A stretch of DNA of 35,808 nucleotides from Williamsia sp. 1138 (GTDB taxonomy: Bacteria > Actinomycetota > Actinomycetes > Mycobacteriales > Mycobacteriaceae), in the NCBI RefSeq assembly GCF_002095435.2, contig NZ_MJEJ02000015.1:1-35808 (forward strand), read 5' to 3'. The translations under genes were made by a program, and so were the position numbers. Position 1 is the first letter of the stretch; every line of letters begins with the position of its first letter. This document shows, piece by piece, positions 20,491-22,585 of the stretch. The notes below the pieces were generated by a model. The model made no database searches and was not told the DNA's origin. It was given only the letters and a program-made list of their open reading frames with translations.

Positions 20491-21156
20491 CTACGGCCGT
20501 CGCAGGATCGCGCTGATGCGATCGACGATTTCGCCGGCCACTCCGAGGGTGGCTGAATCATCTGCAGCACAGTATCTGTCGGCGTCCGCGTCGTAGATGG
20601 CGCCGGCGATTGAGCCGTGGTCGGCATCGAAGGTGATGAGCTCGAGAGGCCAATCGTCGAGCGCAGCGGCGAAATCTTCACTCGCAGTGAGTGGAACCAC
20701 GTCATCGGACGTGCCGTGTAACAGGGTGATCGGTATCCGAGCTCCGGTCGGCAGATCGCCGGTGGGGAGGCTTTCGCCCGTCAGTGGATTGGTTGCGCCG
20801 AACGCGCCGGCCAAGGTGATGACCCGTGACACGGGGCTGGCGTAGTGGTCGGCGTCCAGGGCCACTCCGGCTGCCGCTGTCCCGCCCAGCGACCATCCGA
20901 TCAGTGCGAAGGCGCCGGAGGCTGCGGCGTGACGGAGGGATCCCAACAAGTCGCCGCGACCACGGTCGGTGGCATGCGAATCCCAGTCGGGGACGATGAC
21001 GTGGAACCCATGATGATCGGCGAGCAGTGTCGCGAACGGTCGCATAGTTGCCCGCGCGTCGGTCTGGGTGCCGTGCCACACGAGGACGGCAGGGCCTGTC
21101 GCATCTCCGTACACGTCGACTAGCCGGCCTGGTGCGTATTCGTTGGTCTTCACCAC
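20491..21156 (-). CDS. Alpha/beta hydrolase (dienelactone-hydrolase-like)
   Basis: About 221 residues from the chosen GTG. The order is strand VLVWHGTQ, HVIVPDW, then the nucleophile elbow IGWSLGG, followed by ITLLHGTSDDVVPL with the acid Asp and FDADHGS with the base His. This is a complete catalytic triad. Start is uncertain. GTG 21156 or 21153 gives VKTNEYAPGRLVDVYG, a sensible N terminus; the longer ORF to 21225 would overlap the divergent repeat-protein gene and has an unlikely Cys/Arg-rich leader. Substrate unknown. Confidence 0.85.
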   Translation of the reverse strand: MVKTNEYAPGRLVDVYGDATGPAVLVWHGTQTDARATMRPFATLLADHHGFHVIVPDWDSHATDRGRGDLLGSLRHAAASGAFALIGWSLGGTAAAGVALDADHYASPVSRVITLAGAFGATNPLTGESLPTGDLPTGARIPITLLHGTSDDVVPLTASEDFAAALDDWPLELITFDADHGSIAGAIYDADADRYCAADDSATLGVAGEIVDRISAILRRP

Positions 21157-21209
21157 TGCAGTGTGCCCAGCGGCCGAAGCGCAGACACATCTTGTTGAAC
21201 TGCGGCAGA

Positions 21210-21656
21210 ATGACCGGCGTGACAAAATCTTGCGGTACCGGCAGCACAGTCGTCGACTCGGCGGCCACGGCGGATGCGACTGCGGTGGCGGGGTCGATGG
21301 CCACGTCGTCGAGCACCGCTGTGGCGGGATCGATCGGGACTGTGGCGAGTGCAGGTGTTGCGGGTTCGGCAGGGACTGTCGCGAGCGCGGGCGTCGGGAC
21401 CTCCGTCGCGACGGTGGCCAGTGCTGTGGTCGCGGGCTCTGCGGTCACCGCGACCAGTGCCGTGGTCGCCGGAAGTGCGGGCACCGCATTCTCTTTCGGT
21501 ATCGCAGGGTGTCTCGGGGTCGTGGCGAGCGCACTGTGCCAGCGGTGCATGGCCTGCGTCGGGTGCGTTGGATGCACCGACTGCATTGGGTGTGTGGGTT
21601 GCTACAACTGCTCCGGCCTACGCGGTGCGGTCGGTCTGCGCGACGTGCATGTCTGA
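21210..21656 (+). CDS. Hexapeptide-repeat protein with a Cys-every-third-residue tract; predicted tight beta-solenoid
   Basis: 148 residues from ATG 21210. From about residue 26 the sequence has a strict period of six. Ser occupies 29, 35, 41, and so on to 95, while Val and Thr alternate at 26, 32, 38, and so on to 92, giving a 12-residue V-xx-S-xx-T-xx-S-xx unit. The register continues into a cysteine tract: Cys at 101, then 110, 113, 116 and every third residue to 134, filling both former columns. Residues 23-111 contain no charged residue. There is no signal peptide or membrane-like run. The geometry suggests a narrow solenoid with every third residue pointing inward, with Cys giving disulfides or metal sites. 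No ribosome-binding site is obvious. A DAPG-hydrolase-like gene begins 8 bases later. Function unknown. Confidence 0.75.
   Translation: MTGVTKSCGTGSTVVDSAATADATAVAGSMATSSSTAVAGSIGTVASAGVAGSAGTVASAGVGTSVATVASAVVAGSAVTATSAVVAGSAGTAFSFGIAGCLGVVASALCQRCMACVGCVGCTDCIGCVGCYNCSGLRGAVGLRDVHV
21285..21611 (+). repeat. 18-base coding repeat, then 9-base Cys-codon repeat
   Basis: Codons for residues 26-134 of the repeat protein. The first part repeats an 18-base theme (GTG GCG GGx TCG ...) with a 36-base super-period. The last part repeats TGC/TGT every 9 bases nine times (21537-21611). Codon choice differs between copies, so the period is kept at protein level rather than being a recent DNA tandem expansion. 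Confidence 0.8.
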
Positions 21657-21664
21657 GTGCGCTA

Positions 21665-22585
21665 GTGCCGCGGTATCACGTAACAGCTGCTGACCGTCGG
21701 GCTCTGCCCAAGGCGTTGCGAGGTCGGTCGAGCAGTCACCTCGGCTACGACGCGGCCGAATATACGCGCCCTTTCGCGCACTACTTTCGATCGCACACCG
21801 AGCCGATCCAACCGCACGTCCATGAGGCACTACGTCGTGGACGCGTTCCGGCCGAGTTCGGTTACGGGGTCGACGATGCCCGGGCGCGGCTGTCGGCGCC
21901 TGGCTACGGCCCGATGGAAACCGGCTGGACCCGGACGGCGAGCGGTACTGTGCTCGTCGCGTGTCTGACCGATATGCCTGGTGTCACCGCGGACATGTGG
22001 GACTGGTGGTTCGGGTGGCACCTGACGGACTCCGCGCGCTACAAACTCTGGCATCCGGCGGCGCACAGGCAAGCGTGTGTCGCCGAGGATCGCAGCGACG
22101 TCGCAGGCCTGACGGACCGTGAGAAATACATCGGCAACGTCTCCTTCGTCGATGAGTACATCGGCGCCAAGAAACTGCGACTGGCAATCCGTTTCGTCGA
22201 TCCCACTACGCTCGGATTCGCCGATAGCCCGGGCACCACGTACGTCTGCGCCCGGATCGGCGTGACCTACCTACCGGTGGCAGCCGGCTGGCTCGTCCAT
22301 CAGGTGCGGCCCACCGACCACGGCTGTGAGATGCGGTCCCGGTTCTTCATGGGTCCGGGCGAGATCCTCTCGCTCCCGGGTAGGGCGGTCTCCCTACCCG
22401 GTGCCGCACCATTGCTCACGTCTCGCGTGGGCAGGACAGTCGCGCCCCCGGTTGTCGATGTCGCGGTACGAACCACTTTCAACGATCGTCTCGCTCACGA
22501 CCTGCTTCACCACTGCGCAAGCGAGATGAACCACCTTGCAGGCTTTTTGCCTGCGTTGTACGACGAGTTCAGGTCGATGCCCTGA
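21665..22585 (+). CDS. DAPG/phloretin-hydrolase-like protein
   Basis: About 306 residues. The block MWDWWFGWHLTDSARYKLWHP with the following histidines, plus SFVDEYIGAKKLRLAIRFVD, resembles the DAPG hydrolase (PhlG)/phloretin hydrolase family, which cleaves C-C bonds of acylphloroglucinols with a bound zinc. Recognition is from memory of the family pattern. Candidate metal ligands are the His in GWHLTD, the His in LWHPAAH and the Glu in VDEYIG. GTG 21665 is the first plausible start; upstream sequence in this frame is the complement of other genes. No clear ribosome-binding site was seen. It lies 8 bases after the repeat-protein stop, so co-translation is likely. It ends one base from the convergent marR stop. 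Confidence 0.75.
   Translation: MPRYHVTAADRRALPKALRGRSSSHLGYDAAEYTRPFAHYFRSHTEPIQPHVHEALRRGRVPAEFGYGVDDARARLSAPGYGPMETGWTRTASGTVLVACLTDMPGVTADMWDWWFGWHLTDSARYKLWHPAAHRQACVAEDRSDVAGLTDREKYIGNVSFVDEYIGAKKLRLAIRFVDPTTLGFADSPGTTYVCARIGVTYLPVAAGWLVHQVRPTDHGCEMRSRFFMGPGEILSLPGRAVSLPGAAPLLTSRVGRTVAPPVVDVAVRTTFNDRLAHDLLHHCASEMNHLAGFLPALYDEFRSMP

Follow-up and report, generated by a model that had tools for sequence, protein, structure and literature searches.

Within the window, i.e. the whole stretch of 35,808 nucleotides of Williamsia sp. 1138 DNA that was analysed, an open reading frame on the forward strand at 21210..21656 encodes a protein of 148 residues that we annotate as a putative Cys-core solenoid, based on the open frame, its in-frame homologues and dN/dS values. 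The gene lies between a divergently transcribed alpha/beta hydrolase gene (20494..21156, reverse strand, Pfam Abhydrolase_1) and a DAPG-hydrolase-like gene (21659..22585, forward strand, PF18089, E 1.1e-56). An earlier note on this DNA had drawn attention to the frame, and translation confirms its coordinates as well as the residue patterns listed there: Ser at every sixth residue from 29 and 35 up to 95 (12/12), alternating Val and Thr from 26 to 92 (12/12) and Cys at every third residue from 110 and 113 up to 134 (9/9). The N-terminal part (residues 1–25, 21210..21284) is variable, with high column entropy in the family alignment and no strongly hydrophobic stretch. It is followed by an arm (residues 26–95, 21285..21494) that, from the column table and the identity at lag 12, would form about six coils of 12 residues with a predicted V-S-T-S core, by the ladder of nine Cys (residues 110–134, 21537..21611) and by a C-terminal cap (residues 135–148, 21612..21653) with the family consensus SGLRNAVGLRDVH in the alignment. 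Two further Cys are C101 (21510..21512), the first in a Ser column, and C8. Residues 23–111 are indeed uncharged, the nearest charges to the arm being D22 and R112, and the reported lack of a signal peptide agrees with the low N-terminal hydropathy (top 15-residue mean of 0.92 in the first 30 residues), hydropathy being the sole measure used here.

These patterns are far from what composition would give. When residues 23–108 and 109–148 were permuted separately, none of 100,000 shuffles reached the 13 Ser in phase (best shuffle 9) or the run of nine Cys at a step of three (best shuffle 7). Tandem Repeats Finder detects a single array in the DNA, of 1.9 copies of 36 bases, which suggests that the pattern is kept mainly at the protein level. 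Promoter and terminator scans of 20900–21800 found nothing, and the Williamsia protein has no match in Pfam, NCBIfam or the PADLOC defence library.

The open reading frame is a gene under purifying selection. Whereas the earlier note had named a Ka/Ks near 1 as evidence against its reading, dN/dS in this frame (Nei-Gojobori) lies between 0.06 and 0.15, with values of 0.057, 0.145, 0.067, 0.084, 0.076 and 0.110 in the six Williamsia pairs. In addition, the four Williamsia sequences compared do not differ at any of 18 bases spanning the ATG. In many relatives the gene lies close behind or before genes on the same strand. The four frames that remain beyond this one and its wobble-matched antisense frame give dN/dS above 1 in all pairs. 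There is a negligible chance that the frame is no gene but repetitive GC-rich DNA or the shadow of an antisense reading frame (20702–21586, reverse strand), which is open across the gene with a repeat-like pattern of its own and whose wobble-matched frame also has low dN/dS (0.099–0.162) because the wobble sites are shared, yet the forward frame is lower in 6/6 pairs, members from different genera share invariant Cys and Ser columns, and this conservation rules the non-gene reading out.

Family members were compared in an alignment (A2) of 82 of the 91 available sequences (63 of 72 references plus 19). The homologues keep both the frame and the period, a point on which the earlier note had made its reading depend, and eleven Ser, Thr or Cys columns are invariant in 82/82 members: S47, T68, S71, S77, C110, C116, C119, C122, C125, C128 and C131. 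C113 is present in 81/82, and C134 in all 76 rows having that column. Between 26 and 146, conservation within each triplet falls almost always on the column whose residue number is 2 mod 3, the exceptions being columns 98, 137 and 143, and L137, A140, L143 and V146 carry the every-third step on past the ladder. Over residues 23–148 of the 82 members, 999 of 1002 Cys fall in this register, and charged residues (Asp, Glu, Lys and Arg) occupy only 11 of 3388 in-register cells as against 672 of 6712 others. We read the conservation of the register, the placement of Cys and the exclusion of charge as marks of an inside and an outside.

The earlier note had described the Ser and Val/Thr columns as being taken over by Cys. 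The take-over does occur, but across relatives it is gradual rather than abrupt. Ser and Cys exchange at columns 89 (S68 C12), 95 (S50 C28), 101 (C69 S13) and 107 (C77 S5); column 98 is aliphatic or Cys (L26 V22 C12 I11 M9 A1), and column 104 holds Cys in 70, Val in five and Thr in five of the 82 members.

The length of the coil emerges from the residues between the conserved columns. The array differs in length among members, and the lag and mutual-information tests were carried out on 76 rows, the six of 82 without C134 being left out; L120, which was misanchored, is one of 10 rows listed as phase-slipped. In the arm, identity of outward residues is 0.603 at lag 12 and 0.515 at lag 24, compared with 0.381 and 0.363 at lags 6 and 18, and lag 12 is also where the APC-corrected mutual information between outward columns is highest. 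The same peak is seen within the Cys part (columns 99–147), where 0 of 20,000 random draws of column pairs reach it with all 76 rows and 5 of 20,000 do so when the set is reduced to the 38 rows below 80% identity. In the 17 rows that stay under 70%, lag 12 drops to fifth (57 of 20,000). Pairs in this test were drawn at random, and relatedness was handled by APC and the redundancy filters only. The top co-varying pair is 108–120, 12 residues apart, as are four of the top 25 pairs. Exceptions, which count against the proposal made below, are eight members in which arm and ladder have slipped by six residues and one in which they have slipped by three. The repeat and the co-variation at lag 12 thus support the 12-residue turn that the earlier note had suggested, and a two-sided beta-solenoid with 12 residues per coil and every third residue pointing inward is, on these sequence data, a fold we predict with high confidence.

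A coil of the same kind is found in the beetle antifreeze proteins (TmAFP and DhbAFP; PDB 1EZG), built on the 12-residue repeat TCTxSxNCxxAx, in which residues 2, 5, 8 and 11 point inward and C2–C8 are described as disulfides in PMC8038014. The inward positions would be shared with the family, as would the Ser at position 5, so that the parallel to Tenebrio drawn in the earlier note holds for the spacing. The beetle proteins differ in having two Cys per coil, where the family has up to four, in being exported, a signal for which is not apparent in the family, and in their TxT ice-binding face, which is absent here, columns 37, 39, 43, 45, 49 and 51 being mostly Ala, Gly and Val. Homology is not detectable: neither the family profiles (E up to 10) nor the ladder of one member retrieved 1EZG, and Pfam AFP has no match in the 82 members. 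A phage protein outside the family with a much longer ladder (L145:5911-6414) matches 1EZG at E 0.0012, which indicates that a Cys step of three easily gives such matches, probably through the Cys spacing.

The hexapeptide of left-handed beta-helices is spaced as [LIV]-G-x2-[STAV]-x. The period of six is common to the LpxA/LpxD type and the family, but in the family the inward residues are three apart, and the distinction made by the earlier note stands; 0/82 members match the Pfam hexapeptide at E up to 1, and in NCBIfam a single member of the 82 reaches an LpxD-type model (0.064). Matches of the family in Pfam and NCBIfam are weak and look compositional, perhaps since the sequence resembles low complexity. 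They include Pfam Collagen (17/82 members, best 1.1e-4), a model of Scl-type collagen-like proteins (14/82, best 1e-4) and a single Bactofilin match (0.015) among the 82 members. A collagen-like identity was rejected, since Gly lies off the three-residue step in the alignment, which makes the Pfam Collagen matches compositional. The KMT2B CXXC zinc finger (4pzi) is CxxC-rich like the family, with profile E values of 0.52 and 0.13 that are not significant, and no Fer4 of the 4Fe-4S ferredoxins occurs among the 19 Pfam families matched by the 82 members. Among the open-licence papers listed in literature searches, none is about this family to judge by titles and the starts of abstracts. Csep1P was set aside as a relative, being alpha-helical according to PMC12904459, and the "cysteine ladder" of PMC9210967 occurs only in the title of a cited work, which concerns the LRR protein internalin InlJ.

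In the two-sided geometry the cross-core partner of a residue p is p+6. The pairs 110–116, 122–128 and 125–131 are Cys-Cys in 82/82 members, 113–119 in 81/82 and 101–107 in 65/82. C134 is without such a partner in all 76 rows, as is C104 in 57/69, and in 77/82 members between one and three Cys are unpaired, where complete disulfide pairing of the Tenebrio type would leave none. Along the rod the Cys are stacked: a Cys at column 89, 95, 98 or 104 always has another 12 residues on (12, 28, 12 and 70 cases), and the 101–113 stack has one exception in 69. We read the Cys columns as thiol stacks that have grown from the C-terminal end and do not make up a complete disulfide set, a partial set being possible. 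As seven ladder Cys are invariant while upstream columns tolerate Ser, thiol chemistry beyond packing is suggested. The protein shows no apparent signal for export and is therefore likely to reside in the reducing cytosol. The thiols of the Cys end are probably buried and reduced.

We propose that the protein is a cytosolic rod, a two-sided beta-solenoid of 12 residues per coil, whose N-terminal coils would have a Val-Ser-Thr-Ser core and a bland surface of Ala, Gly, Val and Ile. In the last two to four coils the core would be almost only Cys, closed by the conserved SGLRxxxGLRxVH cap, and this end would form a thiol-lined cavity able to take up soft metal as thiolate clusters, with Cu(I) or Zn(II) the first candidates and Fe-S the second. 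The uncharged arm could serve as a folding template or as a surface for docking or self-packing. A metal-thiolate core is the function that we consider most likely, and metal binding by the Cys is a reasonable working idea, though short of probable; the proposal taken whole, from cytosolic solenoid to bound soft metal, is put forward tentatively. Against the metal reading, no metal-handling gene was found by Pfam among 20 representative neighbours, three of which were without a match. The best functional analogy, we find, is with the Csp3 proteins, which according to PMC5171941 store Cu(I) in the cytosol and have their Cys directed toward the core. The family would resemble them in location and in having many Cys toward the core, but Csp3 is a four-helix bundle, whereas the family has a period of three and no Pfam match to such a family.

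Solenoid layers lie about 4.8 Å apart. It is conceivable, though doubtful, that the four stacked Cys columns make an internal thiolate channel in a one-dimensional protein tube, holding linear or clustered Cu(I), Zn or Fe-S. If the thiolate-channel reading is true, a solenoid core going from Val, Ser and Thr to stacked Cys might represent a new kind of bacterial protein, a suggestion that we offer as speculative.

The same fold could instead use its Cys as a stack of cross-core disulfides by which the rod is locked at its C-terminal end, possibly just when the cell is under oxidative stress. The four cross-core pairs that are Cys-Cys in 81 or 82 of 82 members fit disulfides equally well, and the inward spacing is that of the beetle proteins with their C2–C8 bonds (PMC8038014). 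This is nevertheless unlikely given the unpaired C134 and C104, the full pairing of only 5/82 members and a probable location in the reducing cytosol. About as unlikely is a self-assembling structural rod, in which the uncharged Ala/Gly surface would pack side by side or end to end to give fibres or sheets and the Cys would fill the core of the cap. Columns 36–97 are without Asp, Glu, Lys or Arg in 42/82 members and hold one charge in 31/82, Ser, Val and Cys exchange within the same columns, and the varying array length would suit such a rod, but seven invariant Cys are more than packing seems to need.

A thiol redox element, i.e. an oxidant sensor or a sulfane-sulfur carrier serving neighbouring oxidoreductases, would find its support in the genomic neighbourhood. 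Neighbours were counted in 88 loci, each differing from the others in the last 110 residues, after removal of 10 duplicate loci and L112. One orthologous SDR adjoins the family gene in 27 of these, with the gene behind the SDR in 15 and before it in 12; a succinate dehydrogenase operon includes the gene in 14, with an acyl-CoA dehydrogenase following in 13 of these, WhiB is nearby in six, and in two Gordonia the gene follows SelO. With start sites chosen by the analyst, 12 loci with the SDR in front were measured, and in 7 of them start and stop overlap; behind sdhB, 4 of 7 measured loci have a gap of 4–5 bases, so that the gene is probably translated in operons there. The redox reading is nonetheless rather improbable, because genomic contexts differ between lineages and the SDR and the family gene do not co-occur. 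Among 98 Mycobacterium-type genomes (the genus of M. rhodesiae), the SDR is absent from 12 of the 46 with the family gene and present in 38 of the 52 without it; the gene is thus found in 34 of the 72 genomes that have the SDR and in 12 of the 26 that lack it. Of the 46 genomes with the gene, 20 have it next to the SDR and 5 next to sdhB. A functional link to the neighbours as a requirement was rejected, the presence of the SDR not predicting the family gene. On a quick tree with 40 of 79 inner branches open, i.e. poorly resolved, five context labels are clustered and require 17 changes, or five when the label "other" is left out.

In Williamsia itself the flanking genes are likewise separable from the family gene. 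A homologue of the divergent hydrolase is present in 9/9 genomes, with the family gene beside it in four, and it is 74–90% identical in the three relatives that have the adjoining gene and 54–59% in the five that do not. The DAPG-hydrolase-like gene stands between the family gene and a MarR-type gene in the window and in two other loci (L026 and L028). No match to it was detected near the family gene in Williamsia soli (L027, 19 kb; L215), and a partnership with it as a requirement was also rejected, the family gene persisting in the 19 kb where this neighbour is not found. We take the family gene to be a portable unit that is no fixed partner of any one enzyme.

A RiPP-type precursor peptide with a modified Cys-rich end is very improbable: although the protein is short, repetitive and Cys-rich, and a thiocillin model finds a single one of the 82 members (E 0.0051), no maturase was found with Pfam among the 20 representative neighbours, and the ladder continues the register of the arm.

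The family gene is present in four of nine Williamsia genomes, our own and three at 97, 94 and 90% identity, the other five being without it; the copy of Williamsia soli (L044) is 94% identical, and its last 110 residues equal those of the family frame of L027. The 46 matches among the 98 Mycobacterium-type genomes were scored at E ≤1e-10, and a family of this frequency is unnamed, with only the weak Pfam and NCBIfam matches given above. A search at the family level matched 22 of 301 genomes at E ≤0.001, our own counted, of which three (G012, G044 and G226) proved spurious once the frames were read. At the phylum level 22 of 396 genomes matched and eight were accepted on reading the frames; 14 were dropped, 13 that look like low-complexity or unrelated frames together with L140, a borderline case with a short step-three Cys run within a long frame and no arm, which was left out of the family. 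Two accepted members (L128 and L129) are from another class. The search of named records, from which the best 80 of at least 120 confirmed loci were kept, named Gordonia, Aldersonia, Mycolicibacterium, Mycobacterium, Pseudonocardia and Actinomycetospora among the matches listed. Pseudonocardia and Actinomycetospora are without mycolic acids, and with members there and in another class the family reaches beyond the mycolic-acid bacteria (mycolata). One member of mycobacterial appearance is on a contig (L091) labelled as a Bifidobacterium breve MAG, which is likely to be an error of binning.

Searching plasmid and phage records with the Williamsia protein (tblastn, low-complexity filter on) found none, a weak negative with this filter, while viral contigs gave five matches, confined to the ladder or shorter. 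Phage Cys-ladder proteins (L145, L146, L148 and L149) have CxxC runs with Cys at about every third residue, as in the family, but in those read the Cys are separated by numerous polar or charged residues, and both the Val/Ser/Thr arm and the GLR cap are missing. The profile phrog_15341 is matched by five phage ladder proteins, their likeness to the family being in the ladder only. Matches to this profile also come from 18 of 19 members of the A1 set at E ≤0.01 (best 8.7e-08) and from the Williamsia protein at 2.6e-4 over residues 101–135 only, although a pattern of Cys at every third residue can match by composition; comparison of the phage ladder profile with that of the family gave 96.8% over 25 columns. 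The step shared with the phage proteins may be convergence. On a 103-kb viral contig (L146:5689-6774), three genes in tandem encode proteins that have Cys at roughly every third residue; their N-termini are related, and the genes appear to be paralogues.

Because given core columns hold Ser or aliphatic residues in some members and Cys in others, natural relatives form a graded set, and their comparison can show where packing gives way to disulfide or metal chemistry in a beta-solenoid. Should the Cys core contain metal, the protein would amount to a thiolate array that is genetically encoded and whose fold differs from those of Csp and metallothionein. A natural test of the two-sided model is provided by eight members of one clade (L068, L071, L072, L074, L076, L096, L111 and L117), in which the arm and the ladder have slipped by half a coil, i.e. 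six residues, relative to each other; in L113 the slip is of three residues.
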